In this document: piece by piece, positions 14,961 through 41,821 of the stretch | Position numbering within the stretch: the first letter of the stretch is position 1 | How the letters are laid out: every line of letters starts with the position of its first letter | Assembly: GCA_946807835.1 (NCBI GenBank) | Contig: OX327693.1 | Location: 3,551,501 to 3,615,500, forward strand | DNA: 64,000 nt | Source of the DNA: Ailanthus altissimus | Lineage: Eukaryota > Streptophyta > Magnoliopsida > Sapindales > Simaroubaceae | Direction of reading: 5' to 3' | The notes under the pieces: generated by a model | Seen by the model: only the letters and a program-made list of their open reading frames with translations | What the model was told of the DNA's origin: nothing | The model's database searches: none | Made by a program: the position numbers and the translations under genes

Positions 14961-15716
14961 TGTCGAAGCAGAAGCAAACAAATAAAATTGAACAATTCAT
15001 TTAAATAATATAATAATATAAAATAAGTTATTAAAAAATAAAAAAGAGAAAGGGGTAGAAAAAAAATATACAAAGAATTACGTGGTTCAGTAACTTGTCT
15101 ACGTCCACGGTAGATTAAGATCACACTCTTCTCTTATTATGAATCACAAGGCAACCATAAAGTATGCCTATTACAAGAAAGATCACAAAGAAAACTCTCT
15201 CTTACTCTCTAGAAATTTTCTCTCACAAAGATCCACTAAGAATAATCACTAAGATTATTGTTGATCACCAAAATCTCTCTAAGATCACAAAGATCTCACT
15301 AACTTGACCACAAAGATTGTCAAGATCACAAAGTTGTATTTACAAGCTAATTGATAGCCTTTATATAGGTCTTGGGACGTCTTAGGTTTTCCCTATACAT
15401 GTGGAAGTCGTATTAGGGAGTCCTAAAACAAGTGGGAGACGAAATTAGGAAGTTTCCTAATTTCGGGATTCTGTTCCCGCGTCCAGCGCTGGCGCACTTT
15501 CTGCTGAGCGCTACGGCGCTGGCTTCCTGGCGCCGCGGCGCTAACATACTAGAATTTGAGCCGCAGCGCCCATGCCTTATCGCTGCGGCGCTAACACCTG
15601 TCGCGCCCTTCTTCATTTTTGCCTTCTTTCGCGTCCGTCTTCAATCCGCGCACACCCTACACACTTGGTTTGATCCCCAAATCATATTCCAATGATTTTT
15701 AATCAATATTCTCACA
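14961..15716 (-). repeat. 3' LTR of the Copia element (left copy)
   Basis: On the plus strand it runs from TGTCGAAGCAG to CTCACA, matching the right copy from TGTTGAAGTGG to CTCACA. It contains a GC-rich island at about 15477-15602. A purine tract (minus strand AAGGAGGGGA, about 15720-15729) lies immediately inside, as expected for the plus-strand primer. Confidence 0.9.
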
Positions 15717-15786
15717 AAATCCCCTCCTTGATTTAAAATCATTCACAAAGTAAATCGATCTCTCATTTTCGCATCTTCAATCACCC

Positions 15787-18700
15787 TCACAAAGTAGTGA
15801 CTCTGGTTAAGTCCTTGCATAAGACGAACTTAACTGAGGGCAGTAGTTTAGTCAACATATCAGCAGGGTTTTTAGATGACGCTATCTTTGTCAAACTAAC
15901 TTCACCACTTTGGACAATCTCACGAATGTAATGGAGCCTCACATCAATGTGTTTCGACCTCTCGTGGAACACTTGATGCTTGCTTAGGTGTATGGCACTC
16001 TGGCTGTCATAGTATACACCAGTGTTTACATCTTTATGAGCCAATATCTCCGCGCATATTTCTTTTAACCACACGGCCTCCTTTATAACTTCACCAACAG
16101 TTATGTACTCTGCCACTGTGGTAGAAAGTGTAACCACATGTTGTAGAACTGATCTCTAACACACACTACACCTAAACACTGTGAATACGTAGCCCATCAA
16201 CGATCTTCTCTTGTCAAGATCACCTGCATAATCTGAGTCTACGTACCCTCTTACTATTGCATTGCTGTCATCGTCCCTCTTATACACCAACCCGTGATTC
16301 GACATTCCCTTGAGATATCTCAGAATCCACTTTACTGCAAGCCAGTGATCTTTACCCGGATTCGCCATATATCTACTCACCACACTCACAGCCTGTGCTA
16401 TGTCTGGTCTTGTGCAAACCATTGCATACATTATGCTTCCCACAGCGCTTGCATACGATACTTTGCTCATCTGCAGTTTCTCATCCTCGGATGTCGGCGA
16501 CTGTGCTGCTGACAGTCTGAAATGCATGGCCAAAGGAGTAGAGACAGCCTTCGCGTTTGACATACCAAACTTCTCCAAAATTTTGACTATATATTGCTAT
16601 TGGGACAAGAAGATAACATCTCTTCTTTCCCTTACAATGTCCATACCCAAAATTCTCTTTGCTGCTCCCAAATCCTTCATTTCAAACTCGCCACTTAACT
16701 GCTTCTTGAGCTTTTGTATTTCTTCCATATTCTTTTATGCGATCAACATATCATCGACGTATAGAAGCAAATACATTATCCCATAACTCATGTTCTTGAA
16801 GTACACGCATCCATCATACTTGCTCCTACTAAAGCCACAAGCCATCATAAACTCATCAAATCTCCTATACCACTGTCTAAGTGATTGCTTTAACCCGTAT
16901 AATGACTTCTTTAGCAAACAAGCATGATCTTCTTTACCGGGCTCCTCGAACCCTTGTGGCTGTGCCATGTATATTATTTCTTCAAGCTCTCCATGTAAAA
17001 AAGCTGTCTTTACATCCATCTGCTCTAGATGTAAATAAAGGTTTGCACACATAGCTAACAAAATCCTAATAGATGTGTGCTTGACAACTGGAGAGAATAT
17101 CTCATGAAAATCGACTCCCTCTCTCTGAGTAAAATCTTGTGCTACTAACCTAGCCTTAAATCTCGTAGGCTCAATCCTCGGTATCCCCTCCTTCACCTTA
17201 TACACCCACTTGCACCCGACTAGCTTCTTTTAAGGTCTCTCCACCAACTTTCAGGTATTGTTCTTCCTAAGAGAACAAATTTCTTCTTCCATGGCCTGCT
17301 GCCATTCTTTTTTGTTTTCACTCTTCATAGCCTCACCATATGTCCTAGGCTCATCATACTCAAGAGTGTAAGCAGAATTAAAAGCATGAGCAACTAAGTC
17401 TGCTTGAGCATACCTGACTGGTGGGTTAATCGTTCTCCTTAGCCTGTCTCTAGCAAGCTGGTACTCTTCAAGTTCCAACTCAGGAGTTCTAGTCTTCTTT
17501 TAGGTGGACTTGGAGGAACACGCCAGTGTTCATGGTTCATCTTCAAGGATTTCCTTGTTGAAGTGTTGATCTGGGGGCATATCAGATCCATTTTCAGGTG
17601 CTACTTCAACTTCTATTGACTCGGGTGCTGAGTTTTCCTTGGTCACAGGTTCTTCTTTCTCATCTACTTGAGAGGTTTTCAACATTTTCATCTCATCGAA
17701 CGTCACATCATGGCTTATGATACTCATTGGTGGTGTTAAGTCTTTACACCACACCTTATATCCTTTTACTCCTTCGGGATATCCTATGAATACCCTTTTG
17801 ATAGCTCTAGGTTCCAACTTCCCCTCCTTAACATGTACAAAGGCAGGGCAACCAAATATTCTAAGATGGTCATACTTCGGAGGATTGCCAGACCATTTCT
17901 CTTATAGCGTCTTGAAGTCAATTGCTGAGGAGGGACTTCTGTTTATCAAGTAAGCAGCAGTCACTACAGCTTCTCCCCAGAATGTCTTGGACATTTTCGC
18001 ATTGGTAAGCATGCATCTAACCCTTTCAAGTAGGGTCTTGTTCATCCTCTTAGCTACCCCATTCTGCTGCGGTGTTGATCTTACTATTATGTGCCTTGCA
18101 ATCCCATGCTTGGCACAAAACCCATCAAACTCTTTGTTGCAAAACTCGAGGCCGTTGTCAGTTCTCAACCTCTTCACTCTTTTGCCAGTCTGATTCTCAA
18201 CAAGAATCTTCCAAGTCTTGAATACTTCAAAGGCTTGATCCTTGCTCTTCAACACATAGACCCACAGCTTCCTCGAATAGTCATCAATCAAGCTGATAAA
18301 ATATCTAGCACCACCACGAGTAGCTGTCTGAGCTGGTCCCCAAATATCCGAGTGTATGTAGTCAAGAGTCCCCTTAGTCTTATGCTCGCCGGTACTGAAC
18401 TTCACTCTATGTGCTTTCTCTAGCACACAATGCTCACAAAACTCCAAGGGCTGGAATTTATCCTCACCAAACGTCTTTTGACTATATAACTCCTTTAGGT
18501 TTCTCTCGCCTAGGTGTGCCAGTCTAAGATGCCATAACTTGGTTTGCATACTCTCATCATCTACAGAGAATAGTGCAGAATCACTCACGACTTCACCCTT
18601 AAGCACATAAACACCTTTGTGCTTCTCTCCTCTCATTACCACCATGGAATCTCTCAAAACTCTTAAAATCCCTCCGTCGATCCTAATGGAACACCCATTC

Positions 18701-22280: not shown

Positions 22281-22375
22281 CTATAACAAAAAAGATACAT
22301 GAATTTATATCAATTAGTTGCAAAATTTAAATGTAAAGAAATAAAGACAACATACATTTAGGAGTTATATAATAC

Positions 22376-22669: not shown

Positions 22670-22819
22670 CTTATAAATAAAAATAAAGAATGAGTCAGTG
22701 TAAACACAAAAAAGCTTCATAAAAGTTATGAAAATCTTCTTAAATGGTGGCAATATTTGCGTGGTTTGATTCATTTATTAAAGATTTTATGTAAGAAACA
22801 AAACAAATTAATGAATTAC

Positions 22820-23909
22820 CTTGTTTTTCTTTAGTACTTGATAGACATCCTCGTGATACCACAACCTACTACGTTTTCCTGGCTCCTTCTCTGATTCTCG
22901 ACGAACAATATCTCGACCCATTTCTTGCAATAAATCATGCATTTGACGTTTGTTGTTTGAAATTGTTACGAGTGACTTATCAATTATCATTTTCAACCCA
23001 TAATGCATTGATTAACAGTCATCTAGTATCATTGTTACAATATCTCTATCCTCTCCTTTAAAGAAACATGCAATATCCAAAAATATGTTCTTCTCCTCCC
23101 AATTCAATTCCTCGTAACTGATTTTCAGTACTTCATAAATATCAGGGTCTGAAAGCCGATTTAAGTTACGCAATGCATTTTCCCACTCTTTTTCAGTCTT
23201 TTGATAAAAAGAGGAGCCTAACACTTTAAGAGCTAATGGATTGCCTTTGGCATATTTTACTACCCTCCTTGAAAGCACCGAAAGATCTTCAGGGCAGTGA
23301 TTTTTTCTAAAAGCACAGTTATAAAAGAGTTCAAAGGCTTCATTGTAATTAAATGCCTCAACCTCGTATATGCTATCCACTCCGTATTTATCAAGCACCG
23401 CTTTATCTCTAGTAGTTACAATGATTCTGCTTCCTGAACCGAATCGATCAAGCCCTCCAGCTAAATATTCTAACTGTCCAAATTTATTCACATCATCAAG
23501 AACTATAAAAACCTTCATACACCGAAGCCTCTCCTTAGTATATTGAGGTATATTAGGAGTTCCTACTTTGATATTTTCGTTTAATATTTGTGAAAGAATT
23601 TGATTTCGTAGATGTACCAATCCCCCTCCTTTTTCTGATTCTTCTCTGACATTTGCCATGAAGCATTTGCATTCAAATTCTCTAGAAACTTGGTTGAAAA
23701 CAGCTCCAGCAATGGTTGTTTTACCAATACCACCCATGCCCCAAATTCCTACAACTCGACAATTCGGCAATCCAATGCCTAATAGTGATTTAACTTGCTC
23801 AACGCGTAACTTCATTCCAATCAGGCCTTCAAAATCACTTGAGACTGATGTATCTTCCAATTTCTTTAAAATATCATAGATAATTTCCTTGACAAGTTTT
23901 GCCTCGGGC
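22820..23909 (-). pseudogene. TNL exon 2: NB-ARC domain with premature stop
   Basis: Encodes the nucleotide-binding switch. Visible motifs in order: P-loop GMGGIGKTT, kinase-2 VFIVLDDV, RNBS-B GSGSRIIVTTRDKAVLD, GLPL-type GNPLALKVLGSSF, FLDIACFFKGE, then after the lesion QMHDLLQEMGRDIVRRES (the MHD motif as MHD). A TAA at 23012-23014 interrupts the frame between ILDDC and SMHYGLKM, just before the winged-helix/MHD part. The frame is otherwise continuous, so this is a single nonsense change. The exon is 1,090 nt, typical for TNLs, and ends AACAAG before GTAATT. Confidence 0.9.
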
Positions 23910-26094
23910 CTGGTAGTTGTGAAGACAAAAAATAGTGAGTCAAAACAGAACAAGATAGAATAAAAACCGGTTATATGGAAATTTCACATCACTTGATGTG
24001 GCATTAGATACGCCTATTATTAATTAATATTGTATAACGGTCATATTAATAAAAAATTAACAACTACTTTATAAATAATAGTTACTATTTAATAATACAT
24101 TAATTAAAATACACACTTTATATTTTAATTATATAAATATAACACTCTAATAGTGTTATTAAATATGTGAACATCAAATCATAATAATAAAAATAATAAT
24201 GTAATAGTATCAAACTAATGATAGAAAATAAGAATCCTGGTCATATCAAAAGTTCAAATGATCGAAAAGCTTCATTATAAGAACAACAAATTAGAAATAA
24301 TTGTCACAACATTAATCTATAATGTAATTCTAGTTAAAATAATTTTAGATAGTAATCATCTACCTCTGTTGTTTCATATATTACCCATAAAAATCATAAA
24401 AAATCCATGACATTAGTGAAATCAATTTTAGAGGTGATTTTAAAATATTGATGTCAATAATTAATAGAGGAGTTTTTGGACATCTTGAAACGTCATAAGA
24501 ACAGGTGAGTAACATGGAAACTGGTGGGTAACCTTGGCTTTCAACTTGGGGCCTAAGTTCGAGTTCCCTCTTATACATGAATAAGAGTAGATTTTTTTAA
24601 TTTTTAATAGAATAGATTTAACCATTCCTGAGTTTAAATCTGTGGGCTGCACCACAACAATTTTCATTGTTATATTTTTCAATAAACTTTTAATTCTATA
24701 TATCAGTAGATTGTTATAATATTAAAAAAAAAAGTGAAATAACATGAAAACAATAGAGGGCCACATATAGTTTCCAATAATAATTTTCTTAGACACAGGC
24801 TTCTATAAATCAATGAGATCTAGCACAAATCTATCAAAAGATGAAGTATAACTATATAATAAGAGAAGGATCTTATAAAGGGAAATAAATGTTTTCCAAC
24901 AACTAAATCACTGAAAGTATAAGGTAATTCAATGTTAAATGAAAAAAAAAAAAACAAATAGGCACCAAGTAAATTAAGTTTGCACATGTAGTTGTACTCT
25001 ATATATATCACCACTTCATATTACATCCTTATTTTTAATTTAATTTATTTCCAAAAATAATCCTTATTTAATCTACATATTACATCTCTTTTCATCTATT
25101 TTATTTCCTATCAAATATCAATCATGTAAAATGTGCACTTATTATATTGATCAAATTTATAATTAATTGTGTTTTTTTAACGTACTTACAACTTAAAAAA
25201 AATATAGACTATAAAAAATTGTAATAAAATTCATATTAAAATTGTTTTAATATTAACTTGTATAGTTAAATATTATTTTAGTTATAATTTTCATATTTTT
25301 TATTAACTTAATATTAGAAATTCATAAGGGCACAAATATAACATTTATATTCATGCCTCTGTAATTTCTATAACACTGACCAATAGTTTATACTTATTTT
25401 TGCTTTTGATTTGGCACTCACTTTGCTCTAGCAATTTGTAGGTTTTTTTTAAAAAAAATGTAATTACATCAACAAATATTTCTAATATAGCCAAAAATTG
25501 TAATTATTACAAAATGACTAGCAATATAGATTATGATATGAGATAAGAAAAAATTTTATATATATATATATAATATTATACATGTTCCAATTACTATTAA
25601 CGTTTAACTATTCGGACGTTAATTAAATAATTTAAGGATAAATATGTTCATAAATTTTTATTTTACATACATATGTATATATATGATCAGAGCAATATCA
25701 CATAATTATAATAACCACGTCGTAACAAGATTATGCTTAATTTATGAACTAAAACATTCATTACAGTTAAGTTTTGCAAAAGAACAATAAAAGAAAAAAA
25801 GAAAAATTATCAGTATAATACTTAATTGTTTCTTGAATTACTTATGAGGTCTCTATATTTTTAAAATATCCAATTTAGTCCCTTTTATAGTTTTATTTCA
25901 AAATGTCTAAAATACACTTTTTGAGAGCATTAAGTTAAATTTGATTAAATTGTTTTTCTGCTCTAACAGAAGTGTTTCTCAAATGTTATTTTCTCAACAC
26001 CAAGGACTAAACGAGGGATATTTTAAAAAAACTTAAGGACTAAATTGCCAATTTTAAAAAAATGGATGCACAGAAGAGTTAAAAACGAAATTAC
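23910..26094 (-). other. Intron 1 of the TNL gene
   Basis: A 2,185-base AT-rich intron bounded by GTAATT (donor, after 26095) and CAG (acceptor, before 23909). It contains a patch at 24490-24590 with a B-box-like GTTCGAGTTCC that could be a SINE fragment, and otherwise no recognised repeat or reading frame. Confidence 0.75.
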
Positions 26095-26588
26095 TTGATT
26101 TTCATGGAATCCCATCCAGAAATATTTGAAGCTTCTGTCAATGCAGCCCTCCATTTGCGAACCTTTTCTGGCATCTCCTTAAAACGTATTTCATATTGAA
26201 AAATAGCATTCCCAATATTTCCAATTTGCTTTCGCACATCAGATGGATCAACATGGTAGAAAACTGGAATAACCTTCTGTCCATTCCTTTGGTGGCATTC
26301 AAGAATCTTTACAAGTTCATTCAAGCACCATTTGGAAGAAGCATAATCTTTTGAGAAAATAATTACTGAAATTTTAGACCCTTTGATTGCATTTAAAAGG
26401 GCAGGGGAAATCTCATCTCCCCTCTTAACTTCTTCATCATCAATGAAGGTTTTTATTTTTTTTCGACACAAAGCAGCATAAAGATGGCTAGTAAAGTTAT
26501 CACGGGTATCCTCTCCTCTGAAACTGAGGAAAACATCATATTTTTCTTGAGGAGTAAGGCAAGTAGAAGAAGAAGCAGCAGCAGCCAT
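26095..26588 (-). CDS. TNL exon 1: TIR domain
   Basis: Starts at ATG 26588 (MAAAASSST) and encodes about 164 residues. The TIR begins at KYDVFLSFRGEDTRDNF and contains the SSKWCLNEL segment with the glutamate that is catalytic in plant TIR NADases, then VIPVFYHVDPSDVRKQ. It ends AAAATCAA before GTAATT; joining to exon 2 restores K-P-E-A-K. This exon is undamaged and is followed by a 2.2 kb intron, so a TIR-only transcript is conceivable. The next repeat upstream, a Copia LTR, starts about 760 bases before the ATG. Confidence 0.9.
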
Positions 26589-27352
26589 AGAGAAAAACTA
26601 ATTACGAAATGTGTAACGGAACAGAGTTTCAATGGGATTCTGTTTCAATGGGCTTATGCTAAAATATGTGAAAGTAAAGACATATATTAAGAGCTTAGAT
26701 GACTTCAATATGAAAGTAAATGCTTAGAAACGACATATATTAAATGCTTAGATGACTTCAAGTTTTTTTGTCATCTGGCAATGGCCACTCACTTTTTGGG
26801 TCAAGCCTTCGTTTACAAGCTCAAATGACTTTTAAAATCGATCGTGTGGCCGAAATGCATTCATCTAGAGAATGTATAGCCCACTTTGACAAAGACTTCG
26901 ACTGCCATTTACTTGGACTTCGACTGCCGTTTACTTTTATTCTCATAACCTCATATCCATGGGCAACTATAAAGTAAATTGTTTTTCACATTAAATGTGA
27001 ACGAAAAAAAAATTCTTCGTAGTCTTGACTATTAATAGTCATTAAAAAGTTTGATCTCTATCTTTAATCTTATGTTAATAAAAATAAGCCTATTACTTAA
27101 ATTATATGCTATCTTGAATGATTATTAAGGTAATAAAGATATATATTCTTTCTTTAAATTACACTAATACGTAATAAATGTTAATTAATTTAATTTTTTT
27201 ATAATCATATCATTAAAATAAATTGCTAATTACTATATTGTTTTAAAGAAAAATTTATGTTATTAACAATTGAAATATAACGGTTTTAAACAATTGGAAA
27301 ATAAATATATTTTTAAGAATTAGTTTAGATTTTTTATAATAAAAAAAGTGGT
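26589..27352. other. TNL upstream region
   Basis: About 760 bases between the TNL start codon and the next Copia LTR. This is where the TNL promoter should lie on the minus strand. Bases 26760-26960 are less AT-rich. No clear TATA box was picked out; a 69-codon plus-strand open frame there has no recognisable family. Confidence 0.45.
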
Positions 27353-27829
27353 TGTTAAAGTAGAAGCAATAAAGTTAAGTAATATAATGTAATACAATCA
27401 ATTAAGAAATAAATTAAAAAAGAAAAATAAGAGAAAACACATAAACATTTATATGGTTTAACAACTTGCCTACATTTATTGTAAATCAATATCTCACTCT
27501 ATTATTATTAAATCACAAAACACTCATAAAATATACCTCTAACAAAAATGAACTCACAAAAAACTCTTTAAATTGCTCTCACTTGTAATTTAGGGTTTTT
27601 CTCTCACTAAAAATTATAAAAAATCACTAAGATTTTTTGTTACTACTAAGATATTACTAAAACTTCTTATGTTGTATTTACAAACCAATTGAGACCATTT
27701 ATATAAGCTTTGGATGTCTTAAATTATTTCTAAACTTAATGGGATTTGATTTAGGAAATCATATTCCACTTATGATATAAAATCCTAATTCACTTAGGAT
27801 TAAAGATGATTTTTAATCAACTATTTATA
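27353..27829 (-). repeat. 3' LTR of the second Copia (left copy)
   Basis: Starts TGTTAAAGTAGAAGC and aligns with the LTRs at 14961 and 19804, but lacks their GC-rich island. It ends just before AAATCTCTTCCTTGATT, the counterpart of the polypurine tract in the other copy. Confidence 0.85.
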
Positions 27830-27886
27830 AAATCTCTTCCTTGATTAGTATTAAAGATCTTTCATCTCTGCATCTTAGGTCACCCT

Positions 27887-30682
27887 TGTAGTAACCAGTA
27901 TCCATAACCGGTAAGAATATGTATATTTATATATATAAATATACGTATTTTATTTGTATGTGGGTGATCCTTGAATTATATATTGTTATTAGTAATATTT
28001 TATAGGTTAAGGATATACGATTAGTATTGGGTTTATTTGTATGACTTTAGATTTATTTTAGGGACCAAATTGTTATACTTTGAAAGTTTTGGGGGCAAAT
28101 TCGTAAATACCAAAAATTAACCACTTAGTATAAAAATACACTTTTAAAAACCCTAATTCTCTCATTTTGGTCGAGCTACCCATTTTTAGAGAGAGAAGAG
28201 AGAAATAAAGGAGAGAGAAAGAGAAGAAGAAGAAGAAAAAGAAGAAGAAATTGAAATTTTGGATCTTTAGAGGTATATCACAACTAATTATCAATTTATT
28301 GGTGTTAATTAAGTTAATTTCTTTAATTTTTGATTTCTGGAAATATGTATAATTAAGGATTTGATGTGTATTTCGTTTGATGTTGTGAGAATTGATGATG
28401 ATCTATAAGATAGCTTGATAAATTATGATGAATTGTGGAATTTCTGCTTGATAGTCTCTTGATCTAGGAATTTTATAAATTGTTGTGATTCGATTCTGGT
28501 TTTGAATTTTGAGTATATGAAATTAGACATGTTTAGGATCATCTGAGACTTTGAATCGACTGAAAATCTCGGAAATTGAATTTTTAGTAAATTTACCAAA
28601 ATGACCCTGGAATTCTGGAAATTTCCTGTGTAAACAGTATGATACAGTGGAAAATAATTTTTGACCTGCTGAATGATCTTTAAAAATTACGCATTTGTGG
28701 AATATGATAATTTTATATGTCTAATATGATATACTCGGAATTGAGAATTTGGATCAATGTGGTTGAAGTGTTATGAATTTCTAAAGTGTATCAGCTCATT
28801 GTAGTATTTGATTAACAGATTTTTAAAGTTATGAAATAAAATAGTTTTAAAATACTTTTGGCAGTGATTTGGAAGTGAAATATTTATCATGGACTGAGAT
28901 ATGTGTTAAGAGTAATTATGTGGTAGTTTTATAATTTTTGAGTTAGTATATGATTTTATAAAATTGGGAGATTGAATACTGTTCAGTAAGTATCTTGATC
29001 CTGTCAGGTTTGTAGTTGGATTCGATGGTGTGTATGGAATGGATTGTGTAGGAATTTTGATATAATATTCATATATAAGAAGTATATATGAGTCAAGAAT
29101 GATATATTCTGATTTCGGAGTAATTGGACATCATTTGATGTATTAGAAATTTTTGTTAAGTGTAAGTGGTCAGAATGACAGGTTTTGAGAAACCAAATAT
29201 TTAGACCAATTTGATGTGATAAATGCATTGTGTATAATTTTGTAAGCTATTTAAAGTATTTTGTGTGAATTGTGAGGCTTATGAAAGGATTAATCTCCAT
29301 TGATAGGTTAAGGAGATTTAAGCCTTGTAGCTGAAAGTGTTAAGAGGTAAGTATACTAGACTTTTTACTGAAATCACAATAAACATAGTAATTGTTTTGT
29401 ATGATTTTGCAAATGGGGTTAAGAATATGTTTATGATATGTCAAAGTATATTTTGATATGAAATGTGAATATATGTTTATGAATGTGAGCATTGACATTG
29501 AGCATGGACATACATGTGTTTTTGAAAGTGAGCTTTCCAAAATAAGATGCGTTTAACAAAGAAAGCTTTTGAAGTGTAATATGTCCATGAGAAATATTTT
29601 GTGATTTGAGGGTACTTGAACTTACTGTTAACTTAGTAGGCATTTTATGTGATTTGTGGAGCCTTTATGTGTGGCCTTTCCTTCGGGATTGGTATATGTT
29701 ATGTGTTCCGTATGTAGGGAGGATCCTATTGGTACCTAAAGGAAGTGTGAGTCATCACATTCGTGTGGTGGCGTATTGGTACATGTGAGAGGACTCACCG
29801 ATGATCAGGGTGAGGGTTTGGCTTTTACCTTCGGGCATAAGCGTTATATATGTGTGATTTAAAGACCTCACTTGTACTATTCCTCTCATACGGTATGTCA
29901 CCTACGAGTGACATTTGGCTCATTATGTGATATGTGATATGTAAGTCCTACTAAGTAGTAGTCGAGTAATGGTATTCCTATTATGTGTTTTGAAAGAATG
30001 TGTAAGCACTTACATGATATGTGATTTGATAAGATTATGATTTTGATTGATCACAGCATATCATACATATGCATTGTGTACATATATGTATTTGTATTTG
30101 ATATATGAAAAACTAGTATGCTTACTGAGTTTTATACTCATTATAGTTTATGGTGATTTCAGGTAAATAAGGTACATGTGTGCTTAGCGGATTTGGCAAG
30201 GCTTCTGCTGTTCCTTGGGTTCCCTAAGTTGCTAGGTTGTTGTGTGTTTCATTTGGGGACACGTGGGATAGGATATTTGGTTTGTCCCTATTGAATAAAT
30301 ACTTATGTATTATTTCATTGTGTGTGGATTGGATTTGGTTTAAGTTTTATAAGGTGTGGTTATTGGATGATTTTAAGTAAGAATTTGCAATGGATATATT
30401 CTGGGCTCCCGGTAACAAAGTTGCTACTGGTGACGTAGTAAAGTGTTAATCTCTGAGAAAACTCTGCGTATCTCCGGTTTAATAATTGTCCCAGTCATAA
30501 TTCAATTGCTATAATTCTGAAAGAAATTGAAATGAATGTTTAAATATTGTCAAGAGAAGTTTATATTTATATGTTAGGTTATGGTTGATTTTAGTGTTGA
30601 ACTTACTAGCAACTTGCTAAGGATTTCTGTGTTGAATGTAAGTGATGTCGTGTGTCAGATCTTTTGGGTCTGGGGCGTGACA
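27887..30682 (+). repeat. 5' LTR of the young Gypsy-like element
   Basis: Runs from TGTAGTAACCAGTATCC to GGGGCGTGACA. It is collinear with 34529-37324 at a constant offset of 6,642 bases; the only differences I saw are at 30441 (A, against G at 37083) and 30657 (A, against G at 37299). It contains an AT palindrome near 27917-27950, a purine (GAA) tract at 28215-28252, and two CCTTCGGG-bearing segments near 29680 and 29840. Confidence 0.95.
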
Positions 30683-30690
30683 GCTATTAT

Positions 30691-30702
30691 TGGTATCAGA
30701 GC
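30691..30702 (+). other. Primer binding site of the Gypsy-like element
   Basis: TGGTATCAGAGC begins eight bases after the 5' LTR, complementary to the 3' end of plant initiator Met tRNA. It fixes the element's orientation as plus strand. Confidence 0.9.
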
Positions 30703-30836
30703 TAAGATATGATTTTGTAGACTTTTAAGTGTCGAGTCAAGGGAACCGAGCAGATGCCAAATCCTTAGGATTGTATTTGTAGCTTTGTTGTGTAAAAGTT
30801 TGACATATTCCTTAAATTTTGTATGATTTTGTGAAG

Positions 30837-30935
30837 ATGACACAGTATCCAAGAGCTGCTAAGATTGCTGTTGTTGTGGATAATGGTACCTTGTGGATCT
30901 TAATGTTACCATTTAGATTTTCTTTTAAGTTATGA
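30837..30935 (+). pseudogene. Possible remnant of the gag start
   Basis: An ATG about 135 bases after the primer binding site opens a 32-codon frame, MTQYPRAAKIAVVVDNG and onward to a TGA. Its position is where a Gypsy gag would start, and it is followed at once by the antisense LOG segment. It may be what is left of gag after replacement of the interior. The peptide itself is too short to identify. Confidence 0.3.
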
Positions 30936-31126
30936 CTAATATGCTTAGTAAGAGTGATGTTGAATATCTTATAATGATAATTTGCATGTGATAGAGCAAA
31001 TTGAGATAATTTTCTCAATGACAAAATATAGAGAAGTAGAGTATTGAAGACATCAATTGAAACAACTTTTATTGAAAAGGAAAACAATAACACAACAACA
31101 ATAACAGCAACAAAAATACAATAGAG

Positions 31127-31793
31127 GCTACGGAGTGAGATTTAAGTCTATTTTGCGCTTCTTCTGACTGTCATGAGTAGACCAATCTAACTGATGCAAT
31201 GTTGGATTAGACAGAGGAATAAAAGACTGCAATTGATCAATCAGTTGATCAACAGTTGGAGCTGAAATAAGAATCCGTCGTGCTAGAAGTGGGATGAATT
31301 ATATTCCCGCTGCATAGTCAAGAAAAGATATCAACCCGTCGTAAAAATCATTAACATTTAACAAACCAATGGGTTTTTGGTGGATTTGTAATTGTGCCCA
31401 TGAGACAATTTGAAAAATTTCCTCCAAGGTCCCGAAACCTCCTGGTAGAGCTATGAAAGCATCCGCATGCCTAAGCATTTGAGCCATTCGCTCGTGCATA
31501 GATGAGACTTGTAACTCATCCCCAATTGTTTTTCCTACAACATTTTCAATAGCTAGAGGTTTTGGAATGATACCCAAAACTCGACTACCTTTATTGTGTG
31601 CAGCTTTTGCCACAGACCCCATTAACCCTCGGTTACCTCCTCCATATACTAAATGTATATTTTGCTCAGCTAATACCTTACCAAGATTTTCTGCAACTTT
31701 TGTAAACTCTTCAGTATTCCCAGGGTTGGATCCACAAAAGACACAAATTTTTGTGAATCGACGAGCTGAGGTTTCCTCCATTGTTATGCTCAC
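31127..31793 (-). pseudogene. LOG-family cytokinin-activating enzyme copy, intronless, with a premature stop
   Basis: LOG enzymes release active cytokinin bases from riboside 5'-monophosphates in the cytosol. From ATG 31793 the frame encodes 164 residues: KICVFCGSNPGN, the nucleotide-binding GGGNRGLMG, MHERMAQMLRHADAF and PGGFGTLEEIFQIVSWAQ (family signature PGGxGTxxE). A TAA at 31299-31301 ends it after LDYAAGI. The same frame continues with FIPLLARRILISAPTVDQL and DWSTHDSQKKRKIDL, the expected C-terminus, so nearly the whole protein of about 216 residues is present apart from that stop. LOG genes normally have several introns and this copy has none, implying an RNA intermediate. Antisense to the host element. 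Confidence 0.88.
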
Positions 31794-31840
31794 CTTAATC
31801 TTTGAATATTTTTGAGTTTGTATAAGGATGCAATAATAAT

Positions 31841-31852
31841 GTATTTATAGAG
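31841..31852 (-). promoter_or_regulatory. TATA box upstream of the LOG copy
   Basis: On the minus strand CTCTATAAATAC lies 48 bases before the LOG start codon, a normal plant spacing for a short leader. The segment between it and the ATG is closely matched at 47545-47612 elsewhere in the window, which suggests that a real promoter was captured along with the coding part. Confidence 0.6.
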
Positions 31853-32376
31853 AAACAAATTGATAATAGCTGTGGAGCATATGTGTAAGTATGTTCAAGT
31901 ATATATTTTTCTCGATTCTTGTGAGGTAAAACAAAAAAAAGAGAATGAGTTTTACTTTATCATTTTATAAGGGACAATAGGTCGCAAAATCTTGAATAAA
32001 TATATGTTGATATGTAAGTGTGATAAAAATTGTGTCGGAAGTGTGATAAGTTAGGTAAGATAATTAAGAAAAGTCAATAAAGGCCTATTTCATGGATTTA
32101 GGGACTTAGCCATTTTGGCACTAATGGTCGACAATACATCAATGACTTGAAGACTTTTTGAGCTAACAATTGGACTTTGGACATGAGGCCAAATTAACTT
32201 TATTAATTACAAAGATTTTGTGGTCTTAACATTAATTTTTGGCCGATAGATTAAAAGCAGATATGAAGAAAGATAAAGCACACTTGACATAAAAGATAAA
32301 GCAGTAATCAGTCTCTCTTTGATGTGATAGAGCAACACGGATCTAGTTTCTGTGAAAATAGAAACAGCAATGTAGG

Positions 32377-33570
32377 TCAAAATGAGTCTCCTTGGTCGCT
32401 TTCATCTGTGTCGTATCCGTGAGAGAGGAACTTATGGAGTTGTTGTTCCCATACATTGAATGAGGGCTCTGGCGGAGTGGAATGTGGGTCTACCATATCT
32501 TGATCTTCTCCAGGTGAGCTGGTCTGGATGAGGGATGTGCTGGCTTCCTCTTGGATTTGGGTGTCGGTTGGATAAGGTTGGGAGTCTTGAAAGAGGGATA
32601 AGTCAAGATTGGGTTGGTGTTGGTCAAGTTCTGTCGGGACAACTGGCTGAGATTGAGTAGGTTCTGTCGGGATAACTGGCTGAGATTGGGTAGGTTCTGT
32701 CGGGACAGTTAGCTGAGGCCATTGGTGAAGGTTATCCATTGCTTGTCTGTATCTGGCATAATAAGTCATGTTTGGGATATGGTGATGATGAGTAGAGTAA
32801 TCTGTATTTCTGAGATGTGAAAGATGATATTTTTGTCTTTGTTGGAATTTGAGTATATTGGCAAAATTCAGGTCTTCTGTAAAGTCAGCTTCAACTTGTT
32901 CCCAAGGTGCAGCATCTTCTGGGGAGATCCAAACAGACGGAGGAATTATTTGATTTTCCTGAGCAAGAATTCTTTCAAGTTCTCTCTTTTGCTGAATTAC
33001 TTCTTCAGGCCAGAGCTTAATTGATCCCTTTAGTGAAAGGGTAAATGTGAAGTAATCCTTAACAGTGGGGTAATAATGAATCTCGTGATCTGAAATAATC
33101 ATACCCTTCCGTTGGAGAAGTAAGACTGACCAAAGATGTTGTCTGGGGACTGCAGCATTTGTGTTGTTTGCAATCATGTATTGAAATTTAGTTATCCACC
33201 ATGTCTTTGGGTAAAACCATTGGAGAAAAATCAGGGCTGGATGATCTTCATCACATTTTTCTAATTTTTGGAGGGTTCTAAGTAATGGGAATTCCATGGC
33301 GATTGTATATAGATCCAACAGGTACCATAACAAGTAAAGGACAGGTTTGGACCATTGGGAAAATGGGAAAAAAGAGTGCAGGTGAAAGAAAGGGTATTCT
33401 AAGTTGAACAAAGGGCCACCAAGAACTGTGAGGCCGTGTTCTTGGATTGCTAAGATGGCGTAGTGTCTGATGAATTCTTTGGCACGGGAATGGAGTGTTC
33501 TAGTTTTGATTAGGTCTGGAAATTGTGGTGGAGAAAAAGGAACAGGAGGAGTTATGATAATGGGATTCAT
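32377..33570 (-). CDS. Intact 397-residue ORF of unknown function, antisense in the Gypsy-like element
   Basis: I do not recognise this protein. It starts MNPIIITPPVPFSPPQF, has an aromatic-rich hydrophobic part (residues 50-130, with LYLLWYLLDLYTIAMEF and WFYPKTWWITKFQY), a charged middle (185-255), and an acidic Pro/Gln-rich tail with 11-residue tandem repeats at 289-321 (PTEPTQSQPV). No protease, polymerase, integrase, zinc knuckle or signal peptide is visible. The frame is open for 1.19 kb in AT-rich DNA, so it has been under selection until recently. A TATA box lies 61 bases before the ATG. Antisense extra ORFs are known in some plant Ty3/gypsy lineages; a captured host gene or a pararetrovirus-derived protein are alternatives. 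Confidence 0.8.
   Translation of the reverse strand: MNPIIITPPVPFSPPQFPDLIKTRTLHSRAKEFIRHYAILAIQEHGLTVLGGPLFNLEYPFFHLHSFFPFSQWSKPVLYLLWYLLDLYTIAMEFPLLRTLQKLEKCDEDHPALIFLQWFYPKTWWITKFQYMIANNTNAAVPRQHLWSVLLLQRKGMIISDHEIHYYPTVKDYFTFTLSLKGSIKLWPEEVIQQKRELERILAQENQIIPPSVWISPEDAAPWEQVEADFTEDLNFANILKFQQRQKYHLSHLRNTDYSTHHHHIPNMTYYARYRQAMDNLHQWPQLTVPTEPTQSQPVIPTEPTQSQPVVPTELDQHQPNLDLSLFQDSQPYPTDTQIQEEASTSLIQTSSPGEDQDMVDPHSTPPEPSFNVWEQQLHKFLSHGYDTDESDQGDSF
32630..32710 (-). repeat. 33-base tandem repeats inside the 397-residue ORF
   Basis: Two and a half units of a 33-base repeat (sharing GGTTCTGTCGGGA and AACTGGCTGAGATTG on the plus strand) encode the 11-residue repeats of the protein tail. In-frame unit length keeps the ORF open. 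Confidence 0.8.
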
Positions 33571-33630
33571 TATGAAGATGGTAAGAAGGTTGGTTTTATT
33601 TATTGCTAGAAAAGTGATTATGAGGTTTAG

Positions 33631-33643
33631 GCTATTTATAGAG
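33631..33643 (-). promoter_or_regulatory. TATA box upstream of the 397-residue ORF
   Basis: On the minus strand CTCTATAAATAGC lies 61 bases before ATG 33570. It is nearly the same sequence as the TATA box of the LOG copy, and points to independent transcription of the ORF against the direction of the element. Confidence 0.6.
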
Positions 33644-33709
33644 TTTTATGAAAGAAAATCAATAATCGTTTTGTCCTTTCCTTTTACGTGGATGACGTTA
33701 AAGGAATAG

Positions 33710-34514
33710 TTAAAAGAATCATATTTGCCATCGCAGTAATTGTGCTAGTAGAATCTTTTCTATTTGAAATCGAGCATATTAGAAAAAGCAGACATGTCAA
33801 TCTCAATGAGAAAATGATGTCCAATAAGGTGGACTATTTTTTTTTAAGAGTTAAAGTAAGAGATATAATGTTAAGATCTATAGTTTAAGAATCAGTTGAA
33901 CTAAAGGTCTTTTTATTGAAGTTGATTTTTGATCGTTTAAGATAATGCTTTCAATATTCTGATTTGAATGACAACTTAGTTGCGTAGAAATACTACATTT
34001 TTTTTTTAATGATATCAAGGTAGTGAATGATATTATGACGTATGAGTATATGTTGAAGGGATTAAAATTTTTTTAAAGGAGTTAAGAATTTTATGTAAGA
34101 GATTAGTATGGGTATTCTACATCTATGTTATTCTTTAATGAATGAAAGGTGAAGTGTATAGATACCCATTAAATATTGAACGAATGGGAAAAAAAAAAAA
34201 GAATAAAAATATGTGTGTATAATTTTATAAGTCCATAATGTGTGTCATATGTTTATTTTATGGATATATGTTTCGTTCTCCTCTCGTATACTCAGCTATG
34301 AGCCAACTTAGAGATAATCTAACATATGAATGAGTATTTATTAGGATTTTGGACCACAATGAGCAAATCCTATATACAAGGAAGATTGCTTTGTAAATGT
34401 TTTATGAATAAACTATACAGTTGAAAAGAAAAATTGAGAATGAGAAGAAGAAATGAGATCTAAGTATCCTCATCTATGTGCTTAAGTTATGAATTTCGAG
34501 GACGAAATTCTTAT
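33710..34514 (+). other. Non-coding 3' interior of the Gypsy-like element
   Basis: No long open frame on either strand. The final part (34488-34512, containing TTTCGAGGACGAAATTC) resembles the very end of Gypsy pol and is the only coding relic of the ancestral element on this side. Confidence 0.6.
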
Positions 34515-34527
34515 AAGGAGGGGAGAA
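34515..34527 (+). other. Polypurine tract of the Gypsy-like element
   Basis: AAGGAGGGGAGAA lies one base before the 3' LTR, the place and composition expected of the primer for plus-strand synthesis. Confidence 0.85.
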
Positions 34528-34528
34528 T

Positions 34529-37324
34529 TGTAGTAACCAGTATCCATAACCGGTAAGAATATGTATATTTATATATATAAATATACGTATTTTATTTGTA
34601 TGTGGGTGATCCTTGAATTATATATTGTTATTAGTAATATTTTATAGGTTAAGGATATACGATTAGTATTGGGTTTATTTGTATGACTTTAGATTTATTT
34701 TAGGGACCAAATTGTTATACTTTGAAAGTTTTGGGGGCAAATTCGTAAATACCAAAAATTAACCACTTAGTATAAAAATACACTTTTAAAAACCCTAATT
34801 CTCTCATTTTGGTCGAGCTACCCATTTTTAGAGAGAGAAGAGAGAAATAAAGGAGAGAGAAAGAGAAGAAGAAGAAGAAAAAGAAGAAGAAATTGAAATT
34901 TTGGATCTTTAGAGGTATATCACAACTAATTATCAATTTATTGGTGTTAATTAAGTTAATTTCTTTAATTTTTGATTTCTGGAAATATGTATAATTAAGG
35001 ATTTGATGTGTATTTCGTTTGATGTTGTGAGAATTGATGATGATCTATAAGATAGCTTGATAAATTATGATGAATTGTGGAATTTCTGCTTGATAGTCTC
35101 TTGATCTAGGAATTTTATAAATTGTTGTGATTCGATTCTGGTTTTGAATTTTGAGTATATGAAATTAGACATGTTTAGGATCATCTGAGACTTTGAATCG
35201 ACTGAAAATCTCGGAAATTGAATTTTTAGTAAATTTACCAAAATGACCCTGGAATTCTGGAAATTTCCTGTGTAAACAGTATGATACAGTGGAAAATAAT
35301 TTTTGACCTGCTGAATGATCTTTAAAAATTACGCATTTGTGGAATATGATAATTTTATATGTCTAATATGATATACTCGGAATTGAGAATTTGGATCAAT
35401 GTGGTTGAAGTGTTATGAATTTCTAAAGTGTATCAGCTCATTGTAGTATTTGATTAACAGATTTTTAAAGTTATGAAATAAAATAGTTTTAAAATACTTT
35501 TGGCAGTGATTTGGAAGTGAAATATTTATCATGGACTGAGATATGTGTTAAGAGTAATTATGTGGTAGTTTTATAATTTTTGAGTTAGTATATGATTTTA
35601 TAAAATTGGGAGATTGAATACTGTTCAGTAAGTATCTTGATCCTGTCAGGTTTGTAGTTGGATTCGATGGTGTGTATGGAATGGATTGTGTAGGAATTTT
35701 GATATAATATTCATATATAAGAAGTATATATGAGTCAAGAATGATATATTCTGATTTCGGAGTAATTGGACATCATTTGATGTATTAGAAATTTTTGTTA
35801 AGTGTAAGTGGTCAGAATGACAGGTTTTGAGAAACCAAATATTTAGACCAATTTGATGTGATAAATGCATTGTGTATAATTTTGTAAGCTATTTAAAGTA
35901 TTTTGTGTGAATTGTGAGGCTTATGAAAGGATTAATCTCCATTGATAGGTTAAGGAGATTTAAGCCTTGTAGCTGAAAGTGTTAAGAGGTAAGTATACTA
36001 GACTTTTTACTGAAATCACAATAAACATAGTAATTGTTTTGTATGATTTTGCAAATGGGGTTAAGAATATGTTTATGATATGTCAAAGTATATTTTGATA
36101 TGAAATGTGAATATATGTTTATGAATGTGAGCATTGACATTGAGCATGGACATACATGTGTTTTTGAAAGTGAGCTTTCCAAAATAAGATGCGTTTAACA
36201 AAGAAAGCTTTTGAAGTGTAATATGTCCATGAGAAATATTTTGTGATTTGAGGGTACTTGAACTTACTGTTAACTTAGTAGGCATTTTATGTGATTTGTG
36301 GAGCCTTTATGTGTGGCCTTTCCTTCGGGATTGGTATATGTTATGTGTTCCGTATGTAGGGAGGATCCTATTGGTACCTAAAGGAAGTGTGAGTCATCAC
36401 ATTCGTGTGGTGGCGTATTGGTACATGTGAGAGGACTCACCGATGATCAGGGTGAGGGTTTGGCTTTTACCTTCGGGCATAAGCGTTATATATGTGTGAT
36501 TTAAAGACCTCACTTGTACTATTCCTCTCATACGGTATGTCACCTACGAGTGACATTTGGCTCATTATGTGATATGTGATATGTAAGTCCTACTAAGTAG
36601 TAGTCGAGTAATGGTATTCCTATTATGTGTTTTGAAAGAATGTGTAAGCACTTACATGATATGTGATTTGATAAGATTATGATTTTGATTGATCACAGCA
36701 TATCATACATATGCATTGTGTACATATATGTATTTGTATTTGATATATGAAAAACTAGTATGCTTACTGAGTTTTATACTCATTATAGTTTATGGTGATT
36801 TCAGGTAAATAAGGTACATGTGTGCTTAGCGGATTTGGCAAGGCTTCTGCTGTTCCTTGGGTTCCCTAAGTTGCTAGGTTGTTGTGTGTTTCATTTGGGG
36901 ACACGTGGGATAGGATATTTGGTTTGTCCCTATTGAATAAATACTTATGTATTATTTCATTGTGTGTGGATTGGATTTGGTTTAAGTTTTATAAGGTGTG
37001 GTTATTGGATGATTTTAAGTAAGAATTTGCAATGGATATATTCTGGGCTCCCGGTAACAAAGTTGCTACTGGTGACGTAGTAGAGTGTTAATCTCTGAGA
37101 AAACTCTGCGTATCTCCGGTTTAATAATTGTCCCAGTCATAATTCAATTGCTATAATTCTGAAAGAAATTGAAATGAATGTTTAAATATTGTCAAGAGAA
37201 GTTTATATTTATATGTTAGGTTATGGTTGATTTTAGTGTTGAACTTACTAGCAACTTGCTAAGGATTTCTGTGTTGAATGTAAGTGATGTCGTGTGTCGG
37301 ATCTTTTGGGTCTGGGGCGTGACA
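34529..37324 (+). repeat. 3' LTR of the young Gypsy-like element
   Basis: Nearly identical copy of 27887-30682 (two substitutions seen in 2,796 bases), followed by the right-hand target duplication ACCCT at 37325-37329. Confidence 0.95.
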
Positions 37325-40300
37325 ACCCTCATATAGTAATGACTCTAGTTAAGTCCTTGCATAGGGTGAACTTAACCGAGGACAGTAGCTTACTCAACAT
37401 ATTAGTAGAATTATTAGATGACACAATCTTCGTTAGACTAATTTCGAAACATTGGACAATCTCTATAATGTAATGAAGCCGTATATCAATGTATTTAGAC
37501 CTCTCATGAAACATTTGATGCTTGTTTAGGTGTATGACACTCTAACTATAATAATATACACCGGTGTTAACATTTTCAGTAGCCATTACCTTTGTGCATA
37601 TACCTTTCAATCACACGCTTTCCTTAATAGCTTCACCAATAGCTTTGTACTCTACCTCTGTGGTAAATAGTATAACCACATGTTGTAAAACTAATCTCTA
37701 ACACACATTACACCCAAACATTATGAATACATAACCCGTCAACAATCTTCTCTTGTCTAGATCATATGCATAATCTGAGTCGACATATCTTTTTACATTT
37801 TATTCTTGTTCTCAGCCCTTTTATACACTAATCCATGATCTAACATTCCCTTGAGATATCTCAATATCCATTTCATTACAAGCCAGTGATCTTTTCTCGA
37901 ATTTAACATGTATCTACTTACCACACTTTTAGCATCTGCTGTGTCTAGTCTTATGTAAACCATTATATACATGATGCTCCCCATAGCATTTGCCTATGGT
38001 ACTTTATTCATCTGCAATTTCTTCTCTTTAGATGTTGGCAATTATGCTGCTGAAAATTTGAAATACATAGCCAAGGGTATGGAAACAGCCTTTACATTGG
38101 ACATACCAAACTTTTCTAAGATTTTAAGTATATATCGCTACTATGACAAGAAGATAACATCTCTTCTTTCCTTCATAATATCTATACCCAATATCCTCTT
38201 TGCTGCTCCTAAATCCTTCATCTCAAACTCACCACTCAACTATTTCTTGAGTTTTTGTATTTTTTCCAAATTTGTACATGTGATCAACATGCCATCTACG
38301 TGCAGAAGTAAATATATTATCTCATCTCATGTTCTTAAAGTACACACATCTATCATAATTGATTCCACTAAACACATAAGTCATCATAAACTCATCAAAT
38401 CTCATATACCACTGTCTAGGTGATTACTTTAACCCACATAATGACTTCTTCAGTAAATAAGTATGCTCCTTTTTTTCGGGCTCTACAAACCCTTGCGGTT
38501 GTGCCATGTATATCATCTCTTCAAGCTATCCATATAGACAAGCTGTCTTTACTTTCTTTTGCTCTAGATGTAATTAAATGTTTGCATATATGGCTAATAA
38601 AATCTTAATGGAAGTGTTCTTGATGACTAGAGAGAAATCTCATAAAAGTCTACTCTATTTCTCTGAGTAAATTCTTGTGCAACTAACTTAACTTTGAATC
38701 TTGTAGGCTCTACCTCTAGTATTGCCTCCTTAACCTTATACACTCACTTACACCCCACTAGTTTCTTTTGAGGTCTCTCCATCAACTCTTAGGTATTATT
38801 CTTTTTAAGAGAACTAATCTCTTCTTCCATGGCCTGCTACTATTTATCACTATAGTCATTCTTTATAGTCTCACTATATGTTCTAGACTCATCAAATTTA
38901 AGAGTGTAAACAGAATTAAAAGCATAAGCAACTATATTTTTCTGTGCATATATGATTGGTGAGTTAATCATATATGCACAGACAAATATAGTTGAATAGT
39001 TGGTACTATTCAAGCTCCATCTCAAGAGTCTTAGTTTTAGTTTGGGTAGACTTAGAGGAACTCGTCAGTGTTTTTGGCTCATCTTCAAGGATGTTCTTAT
39101 TGAAGTGCTGATCTAGAGCATATCAGATCTACACTCAGGTTCTACTTCAAGTTCAATTGACTCGGGTGTTAAGTCTTCTTTAGGTATAGGTTCTTCTTTC
39201 TTGTCTTTTTGGGAGGATTTCAACATTACCATCTCATTGAATGTCACATCACGACTTATGATACTCCTTGATGGTGTCAACTATCTACACCACACCTTGT
39301 ATCTTTTCACATCTTCGGGATACCCTATAAATATCCCCTTGATAACTCTAGGTTCTAATTTTTCCTCTTTCACATGAACAAATATTGGGCAACCAAACAT
39401 TCTAAAGTGATCATACTTGAAAAGGTTGCCAGACCACTTCTCTTCTAGGGACTTAAAATCCATCACTAATGAGGAACTTCTATTACTCAAATAAGATGCA
39501 ATCATCACAGCTTTACCTTAAAGTATCATAGGCTTCTTTGCATTAGTAAGTATGCATCTAACCCTTTAAAGTATGGTCATATCCATCCTCTTAGCCAAAC
39601 TATTCTACTGCAGTGTTGATCTCACAGTTTTATACCTTACAATCTCATATTTGATATAAAATTCATTAAACTTTTTATTGTAAAACTCAAGTCCATTGTC
39701 AATTCTTAGCCTTTTTATCATTTTTCGAGTTTGATTCTCAACAAGAGCCTTCCCAGTCTTGAAAGTATTAAACACTTAATCCTTACACTTTAACACATAG
39801 ACTCATAACTTTCTCGAATAGTCATTAATAAAACTAGGAGAATACCTAGCCCTACCATGAGTCACTGTTTGAGTTGGTCTTCAAAGATCTAAGTGTATGT
39901 AGTTAAGAGTCCCCTTAGTCTTGTGCTCGCTGGTACTGAGCCTCACTCTATATACTTTTCCTAGTACATAATGCTCACAAAACTCTAATGGCTACAACCT
40001 ATCTTCACCAAATGTCTTTTGACTAAATAACTCATACAAGTTTCTCTCACCTATATGTGCTAGTCTAAGATGTCATAACTTGATTTGTATACTCTTATCA
40101 TCTATAAAGAATAATGTAGAACCACTTACAACCTTTCCCTTTAGCACATAAACACATTTGCGCTTCTCACATTTCATTATAACTATGAAACCCCTTAGTG
40201 TTCTCAAAAACCTTCTATCAATCCTAACAAAACACATATTCTGGTTTAAAGTTCCTGAGATCAAGTTCTTCTTAAGGTCAAAACCATACTAAACATTTGA

Positions 40301-41337
40301 CAACTCCCTCACTCGCTCATTATGCAACATAAGTTTGATATTACCAATTCACATTACTTGATGAGTAACGTCATTACCCATTAACACCTTACCACGGCTA
40401 ATTGACTGAAAATTTACAAACCATGACTTGTGGGCACATGAAAAAAGTGTAACCAGAATATTGAACCCAATATTCAGCATTCTTACCTTCAGCAGCAACT
40501 AGAGTCTCTGTGCTGTCATAACTATCATCATCGATAAGCATAGCATCCACTTTCTTCTTGACTTGTGCTTTTTTCTCTTGACAGTCCTTTATAAAGTGTC
40601 CCTCTTTTTTACAGCAATAGCACTTCTTAGAAATCTTAGACTTTGATCTTGAGTCCTTCTTCTTTCCATCTCTATTTGAGAACCTTCCTCTTGCAGATAA
40701 ATATTTTGTGTTCCCCTAAATTTGCTTTCCTGACAGCTTTAAGTTTAATAATGATTTCACATCACTAATCGTTAAACTCTCTCTGCCATAGAATAATGTA
40801 TCAACAAAGCTCTCATAACTTTTAGGAAGTGAACTTAGTATAATGATTACCTTATCTTCATTTTCTATCTTTATATTGATAAACTCAAGATCAACAATGA
40901 TTTTGCTAAAGGTGTATATATAGTCTTTCATCAGTGTCCCTTCTGACATGGATAATTGATACAACTTTTTCTTTATCAGTAATATGTTGGCTAACAATTT
41001 TTGCATGTAAAGAGAATTAAGCTTCTTTCATAGACCAATTGATGTACTCTTATCTGCTACTTTCCTCAAGACTTCATCGCTTAATAATAGAACAATTAGA
41101 CTATGAGCTCTTTCTTATATGTCTTTTTTTTTGCTTCAGATTTAGATGACTCCGACATCTTTTCTTTTTTACTAGATAAAGCTATAGTCTCCTCTAATAT
41201 CGAGCCTAATCATTGGCTCACTAGCAACGCTTTCATCTTGAACTTATGCAGATTAAAGTCATTTGCCCCATTGAATTTCTCAACCTCATACTTAGGTGCT
41301 GTCATGTCTTACTTTGCACCAAGCTCTTATACTAGTT
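37325..41337 (-). pseudogene. Decayed gag-pol of the second Copia
   Basis: Minus-strand fragments correspond one by one to the Copia at 14961-20590: RNase H (37329-37514), the RNase H/RT junction (37793-37984), reverse transcriptase (about 37985-38760), integrase C-terminal part (39281-39508), protease/integrase start (40073-40264) and gag (40716-41006, LYQLSMSEGTLM and LPKSYESFVDTLFY). Frameshifts and stops are numerous throughout. Confidence 0.85.
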
Positions 41338-41821
41338 TATTGAAATGGAATCAATAACCCCAAGTAATATTATGCAGTAATAAGTAATTAAAAAATAAAT
41401 TAGAAAAGAAAAATAGGAGAAAGCACACAAAAATTTACATGGTTTAGTAACTTACCTCCATCCACAATAGGTCAAGATCTTATTCTATTATTATTGAATC
41501 ACAAAATACTCACAGAATATGCATTTTACAAGAAATAGCTCAAGAATTCACAAAGAACTCTCTTAATTGCTCTCACTTGTAATCTAAGAATTTTCTCTCA
41601 CTAAGAATCACAAAAAAATACTATGATTTGTTGTGATTACTAAAATATCACTAACACTTCTTATGATGTATTTACAATCAATTGAGAGCCTTTATATAGA
41701 CTTTTGATGTCTTAGGTTATTCTTAAACTTAGTAAAATTTGGTTTAGAAGTCTTATTTCATTTAAAATACAAAATCTTAGTTCACTTAAGATTAATGATG
41801 ATTTTTAATCAAATTTTCACA
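41338..41821 (-). repeat. 5' LTR of the second Copia (right copy)
   Basis: Aligns with the LTR at 19804-20590 from TATTGAAATGG to TTTTCACA but is about 300 bases shorter because the GC-rich island is absent. A diverged primer binding site (reverse complement of AAGCTCTTATACTA) lies just inside. Confidence 0.85.

Follow-up and report, generated by a model that had tools for sequence, protein, structure and literature searches.

A LOG-family gene inside a retrotransposon is already known. Athila-like Ty3/gypsy elements with YgdH/LOGL-like extra open reading frames (ORFs), similar to LOGL4, were reportedly described by Steinbauerova et al. in 2011, and here we describe a long terminal repeat (LTR) retrotransposon that holds a LOG-family copy and a 397-codon ORF in a 64,000-nucleotide stretch of the Ailanthus altissimus genome (assembly GCA_946807835.1, contig OX327693.1, positions 3,551,501 to 3,615,500, forward strand). 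The whole stretch is called the window, and all positions below are counted from its first base. The part of PMC9289625 that deals with LOG-type domains finds YgdH, a LOG-family domain, in the Gypsy consensus sequences of two species of Citrus and also, when a filter was off, in those of Populus trichocarpa, and cites Steinbauerova 2011; in general, the extra ORFs of plant retrotransposons mostly lack known conserved domains (PMC9289625). The passages on Grande gene23, RIRE2 and Retand in PMC7264820 and PMC11963269 report ORFs that run antisense and lie ahead of the 3' LTR, and the former describes gene23 as having an upstream promoter from which it is transcribed. In the corresponding sections of PMC9289625 and PMC7264820, an orchid Gypsy element keeps an ALKBH5-like RNA demethylase across many copies, and maize Bs1 is an LTR element carrying pieces of different host genes.

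Like the YgdH/LOGL Ty3/gypsy elements, the Ailanthus element has a LOG-family gene within an LTR retrotransposon. The consensuses in PMC9289625, as presented in that part of the paper, were found via reverse transcriptase, whereas gag-pol is gone here; the LOG copy here is antisense, has a putative TATA box of its own and is accompanied by another antisense ORF, and the LOG-domain account in that paper, as far as it extends, mentions neither a C-terminal tail nor orientation. Grande, RIRE2 and Retand resemble it in having antisense ORFs ahead of the 3' LTR, and the promoter ascribed to gene23 in that passage of PMC7264820 has a parallel in the putative antisense units of our element. Unlike those three, the Ailanthus element has no Pfam match to TRP28 at E<=1, lacks gag-pol and has one antisense ORF that belongs to an identifiable enzyme family. 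The orchid element likewise keeps a host-type enzyme in many copies; the enzyme is a different one, and its activity was tested in vitro in the section cited above (PMC9289625), whereas our evidence comes from nucleotide and protein comparisons. Bs1 also joins an LTR element to host gene sequence (PMC7264820, same section), but our element carries a LOG of a non-canonical clade with a promoter motif of its own.

We consider it probable that a non-autonomous LTR retrotransposon with self-promoted antisense accessory genes inserted recently at this locus, and that its LOG comes from an old lineage resident in retrotransposons. For the terms tried, we found no report in the open-access literature of the tailed LOG clade described below, of its breadth, or of an antisense self-promoted arrangement in an element that lacks gag-pol.

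Results

The element is a recent insertion. Two LTRs of 2,796 bases, each starting with TGTAGT and ending with GTGACA, flank an interior of 3,846 bases (Table 1). The TG...CA ends, the ACCCT target-site duplication, a match to a primer binding site and a polypurine tract are all present, and each is correctly placed. The primer binding site, TGGTATCAGAGC, is presumably complementary to initiator tRNA-Met at its 3' end. The LTRs differ at two positions (30441/37083 and 30657/37299), each A versus G. If 1.3e-8 substitutions per site accumulate each year, the insertion is 27,500 years old (Poisson 95% interval 3,300-99,000); a rate of 2.5e-9 gives 143,000 years, with an upper limit of about 517,000. 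Paired LTRs with two differences, the duplication, the primer binding site, the polypurine tract and an age of some tens of thousands of years had all been put forward in the original prediction; every coordinate was confirmed, and the age follows at the rate it used, 1.3e-8.

Near-identical repeats of 2.8 kb may be misassembled, so that the LTR pair could be an assembly duplication with no element behind it. The structural marks listed above argue against this, and so does an empty site within the same window. The insertion site (27806-27886 and 37330-38529) lies within Copia-like sequence that is paralogous to 15692-16988; when the two flanks of the element are joined, they align to this paralogue at 79% identity with no gap across the junction. 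The insertion is thus real and an assembly artefact very unlikely, to the point that we give that explanation almost no weight. The more distant 5' flank of the element matches 41337-41825 instead (78%).

The absence of gag-pol, which had been claimed before, was borne out for the stretches scanned, namely interior stop-to-stop stretches of at least 55 aa and LTR stretches of at least 45 aa, with no shorter ones. The scan covered 12 of the 14 in the interior, the LOG and 397-codon ORFs among them, and 10 of the 15 in the LTR, and none of these matched gag-pol in Pfam at E<=1. The smaller ones scanned, in interior and LTR alike, yielded nothing beyond weak matches, all below the curated cut-offs and none to gag-pol. 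The gag and pol of an autonomous element were therefore not found among the scanned stretches. A short putative remnant is present: MNFEDEILIRRGEL directly before the 3' LTR, which we take to be the end of a Del/Tekay-type pol. A pattern scan of viral contigs for this chromovirus end motif returned 0 matches. Going by the type of the primer binding site and the MNFEDEILIRRGEL end motif, the element probably derives from a Del/Tekay-type chromovirus.

The LOG frame of this copy is broken. It is intronless, lies on the minus strand like the 397-codon ORF, and is open to codon 217 except for a single interruption, an in-frame stop at codon 161; the intact part is a 160-aa ORF, and the last 57 codons are lost. 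The frame matches PF03641 at 2.4e-35, exceeds the TIGR00730 cut-off and contains GGGxxGLMG and PGGxGTxEE, which we take to be the LOG active-site motifs; it is thus a LOG domain. Against the NCBIfam equivalog NF058542, with a cut-off of 300, the window LOG scores 116.5 and its relative P0002 scores 124.5, a result that may say little, as canonical plant LOGs were left unscored. P0002 (217 aa, 10 member sequences) is 97% identical to the window LOG and uninterrupted, which identifies the 160-aa ORF as a broken copy; a full-length LOG of about 215 intact residues is found in P0002 and not in the window. The antisense, intronless LOG copy of the original prediction, along with an intact antisense 397-codon ORF, thus stands, but not as a full-length enzyme; that account had called the other ORF alone intact. 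A LOG cluster at 79% identity, P0003, is also 160 aa long and ends at the same column as the window stop. A purposeful short form of LOG, suggested by this shared end, was set aside, because the ends of other short forms are scattered over many positions, as expected from decay or gene-model cuts.

The relatives of the window LOG form a clade of their own. A protein search was analysed for the best 120 of 7,992 matches, among which P0002 (97%), P0005 (95%) and P0007 (90% over part) are the closest, the remaining ones having 62-79% identity. Reevesia pubescens accounts for 55 of these 120, on 19 chromosome labels by hand count; Xanthoceras, Paulownia, Rehmannia, Populus and Diplodiscus are the other named sources. 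GGGxxGLMG occurs in 100/120 and PGGxGTxEE in 101/120. Including the window copy, 27 of 121 sequences are shorter than 200 aa, as expected from decaying mobile copies, and some of these may be gene-model cuts or contig ends. A search with AtLOG3 retrieved the canonical LOG1/3 group, at 79-98% identity among the listed 120, with one at 73%. Searches with P0002 found no relative in viral contigs, and genome contigs gave nothing but a bacterial LOG at 46%.

The main tree has 139 rows: the window LOG, 118 of the 120 matches (two below 150 aa were dropped), 17 hand-picked rows of the 120 canonical ones, At5g11950, which we take to be LOG8, and two outgroup chains that are presumably bacterial. Neither this tree nor the next includes LOG5, LOG7 and LOG9 types or the host's own LOGs. 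The window and the 118 matches form one clade of 119 rows against the 17 canonical rows and AtLOG8, with support of 100/95, and the Reevesia rows form one clade (100/100); the bootstrap of this tree had yet to stabilise, and its outgroup was flagged for long branches. A 37-row tree repeats this division with support of 96/88; it is a tree (23 of the 120 matches, hand-picked) in which the last 18 residues were removed from the LOG1/3-type and element-type rows. In approximately unbiased tests, a grouping of the element-type LOGs with AtLOG8 was not rejected (p 0.129) and one with LOG1/3 was only weakly rejected (p 0.027); their source may thus be any of several host LOG types.

Most members of the clade share a C-terminal tail. 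Counts were made on proteins of 205-225 aa, which are 90 of the 120 matches (30 left out) and 85 of the 120 canonical LOGs (35 left out). We looked for a basic run in the last 20 residues and, in the last 14, for LxLxL or DLNxxP as the ethylene-responsive element binding factor-associated amphiphilic repression (EAR) pattern; we assume that these represent a nuclear-signal-like basic run and the two classic EAR forms. The EAR-like pattern is found in 72/90 matches, the basic run in 80/90 and both together in 67/90, as against 0/85 canonical LOGs in each case. Shuffled proteins would show the EAR pattern in 1.3% (matches) and 0.6% (canonical). With no length filter, it is present in 73/120 matches versus 0/120 canonical LOGs, and it does not depend on Reevesia (29/35 Reevesia, 43/55 others, among the 90). 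The tail typically reads KKRKLDLTLRL or KRKLNLTLSL; the window frame encodes such a tail beyond its stop, and its product therefore lacks it. When the EAR state is mapped onto the 33 labelled rows of the tree built without the tail, three changes are required, and one of these is P0004, which is scored as lacking EAR because of its altered end. The tail pattern of the LOG clade is apparently new as far as these comparisons and the open literature go. Among open-access matches to the terms tried, we found no report of such a tail in retrotransposon LOGs and no paper with both 'EAR motif' and 'retrotransposon'.

These results bear on two other origins for the LOG copy. First, the original prediction supposed that the element had captured a host transcript, that is, that the spliced RNA of some ordinary LOG gene in the host was recently taken up. 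The copy is indeed intronless, and LTR elements are known to capture transcripts, according to the section of PMC7264820 on this subject. Its nearest kin, however, are non-canonical and often multi-copy LOGs, not LOG1/3 or LOG8: P0002, P0005 and P0007 apart, the best 120 matches reach no more than the 62-79% given above, and 0/118 tree matches group with the canonical rows, LOG5, LOG7, LOG9 and the host's own LOGs being outside the tree. The canonical LOG1/3 are a separate, highly conserved group in which the tail occurs in 0/85 rows, and the TATA box upstream of the copy (below) is unexpected for a processed transcript. These comparisons do not favour such a capture, and we regard it as quite improbable. 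The supposition that the element has been spreading has only indirect support, from near-identical relatives of both proteins in public sequence (P0001 at 99%, P0002 at 97%, P0005 at 95% and P0007 at 90% over part).

Second, the tailed clade may consist of ordinary nuclear genes whose lineage grew in certain plants and was picked up only by this element and a few others in Citrus and Populus. Populus members are annotated publicly as genes (LOGL10), some of the clade might be present as single-copy genes, and LOG5, LOG7 and LOG9 are outside the tree; the Reevesia copies are known without their flanking DNA, in a family that is allopolyploid according to the relevant part of PMC12343791. Still, 55 diverged protein clusters on 19 Reevesia chromosome labels, together with many shortened copies, look like a mobile element, and Gypsy consensuses with a LOG-type domain have already been published, as the pertinent part of PMC9289625 records. 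We hold this second origin to be unlikely.

The two antisense genes appear to have promoters of their own. A TATA box, TATAAATA, precedes each of them, and these are the two minus-strand occurrences in the interior, the plus strand having none. In shuffled upstream sequences, TATAAATA fell between 110 and 40 bases ahead of the ATG, a range chosen after the boxes had been seen, in 1.4% (LOG) and 1.0% (397-codon ORF) of cases; the joint chance of both placements is about 1.4e-4 if they are independent. An AATAAA follows each frame, with no chance comparison made for its placement. With TATA box, ORF and poly-A signal, each antisense gene looks like a complete transcription unit.

The 397-codon ORF is open over a length beyond chance: the open stretch around it has 422 codons, compared with a maximum of 208 in 1000 shuffles of the region. 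A protein search turned up a single relative, P0001 (99%, five residue differences). No Pfam family was matched at E<=1, including TRP28 (PF04195), the mark of Retand-type ORFs, although the HMMER filters drop most weak matches; neither was there an NCBIfam match at E<=0.01, a PDB match at E<=10 or a relative in viral contigs. An AlphaFold model has a mean predicted local distance difference test (pLDDT) score of 38 and is of no use. Three 33-base repeats lie in register inside the ORF (32628-32726, minus strand; 100, 94 and 64% to the first) and encode 11-residue units such as PTEPTQSQPVV.

Table 1. Positions of the element, its parts and its empty site in the window
Feature	Position	Strand	Remark
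Paralogous Copia stretch	15692..16988	+	empty site for the insertion; alignment of joined flanks
Target-site duplication ACCCT, left copy	27882..27886	none	
5' LTR	27887..30682	+	2,796 bases, TG...CA
Primer binding site TGGTATCAGAGC	30691..30702	+	PBS-like match
Poly-A signal AATAAA (LOG)	31068..31073	-	about 58 bases past the LOG frame end; common in AT-rich DNA
LOG-family frame	31128..31781	-	217 codons, intronless; in-frame stop at codon 161 (31299-31301)
Tail KKRKIDLNLTP	31131..31163	-	basic run and DLNxxP; beyond the stop in the window copy
TATA box TATAAATA (LOG)	31842..31849	-	68 bases upstream of the LOG ATG
Poly-A signal AATAAA (397-codon ORF)	32199..32204	-	about 176 bases past the ORF end
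397-codon ORF	32377..33570	-	intact, without known domain
TATA box TATAAATA (397-codon ORF)	33633..33640	-	70 bases upstream of the ORF ATG
Remnant MNFEDEILIRRGEL with its stop	34489..34533	+	probable chromovirus pol end
Polypurine tract AAGGAGGGGAGAA	34515..34527	+	read off the sequence
3' LTR	34529..37324	+	2,796 bases
Target-site duplication ACCCT, right copy	37325..37329	none	

In the surroundings, a TIR-NB-ARC-LRR resistance-type gene occupies 21009-26597 on the minus strand, its TIR part starting about 1.3 kb from the 5' LTR; the element is on the upstream side of this gene and could influence its expression. A segment of 92 bases at 13157-13248 resembles the LTR (78%), lies in the opposite orientation and may be the remnant of an older related element. 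A tRNA-Met (CAT) at 7103-7178, which in our view resembles mitochondrial trnfM, is possibly an organelle DNA insert.

Discussion

We propose that the element borrows gag-pol from an autonomous relative, and that the sense RNA made from its LTR would serve as the copying template only. The two antisense genes would be transcribed by RNA polymerase II from their own promoters as accessory cargo. The LOG lineage may have been resident in retrotransposons for a long time, with the basic run and the EAR-like motif in most of its branches. Its intact members could be nuclear LOG proteins that either recruit a co-repressor of the TOPLESS type to chromatin or alter cellular cytokinin, in both cases to the benefit of the element. 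In the window copy, the 397-aa gene alone would still be able to act in full, the LOG having been cut short by a nonsense mutation.

Several points weigh against the reading of the locus as an element with self-promoted genes and a long-resident LOG. Many copies have decayed, including the window LOG, whose tail is lost. The residence of other clade members in LTR elements is argued from copy number and literature, and allopolyploidy, which shaped the family of Reevesia (the cotton family) according to that part of PMC12343791, would multiply ordinary genes too. Among the ten earliest-branching rows, EAR is found in 0/10 and the basic run in 9/10. Both the EAR and the nuclear-signal readings of the tail are pattern matches. 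The number of TATAAATA boxes is in itself unremarkable, as shuffled interiors average 0.45 over both strands, and the placement alone is striking; the 5' LTR also holds one TATAAATA. The assignment to Del/Tekay is drawn from end motifs and not from reverse transcriptase.

A wider idea can be put forward tentatively, though we find it rather doubtful: retrotransposons in several eudicot families may keep a nuclear LOG with a TOPLESS-recruiting tail of the form KKRK-LDLTLxL, expressed antisense from its own promoter, and may thus steer the chromatin or hormone state of the host in favour of transposition. With regard to the tail, the relevant part of PMC6305195 reports a TOPLESS-binding protein in which an EAR-like motif and a WUS-box are jointly needed, single mutations having no clear effect.

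As the extra ORFs of plant retrotransposons mostly have no known domain, what they do is difficult to test. A LOG lineage in which the enzyme fold can be recognised and a tail of co-repressor type is conserved offers a testable handle on them. If the proposal is true, a mobile element would act in trans on plant hormone or gene silencing. There is also a warning for annotation, as 'LOG genes' that number in the dozens in certain plant genomes may belong to mobile elements.

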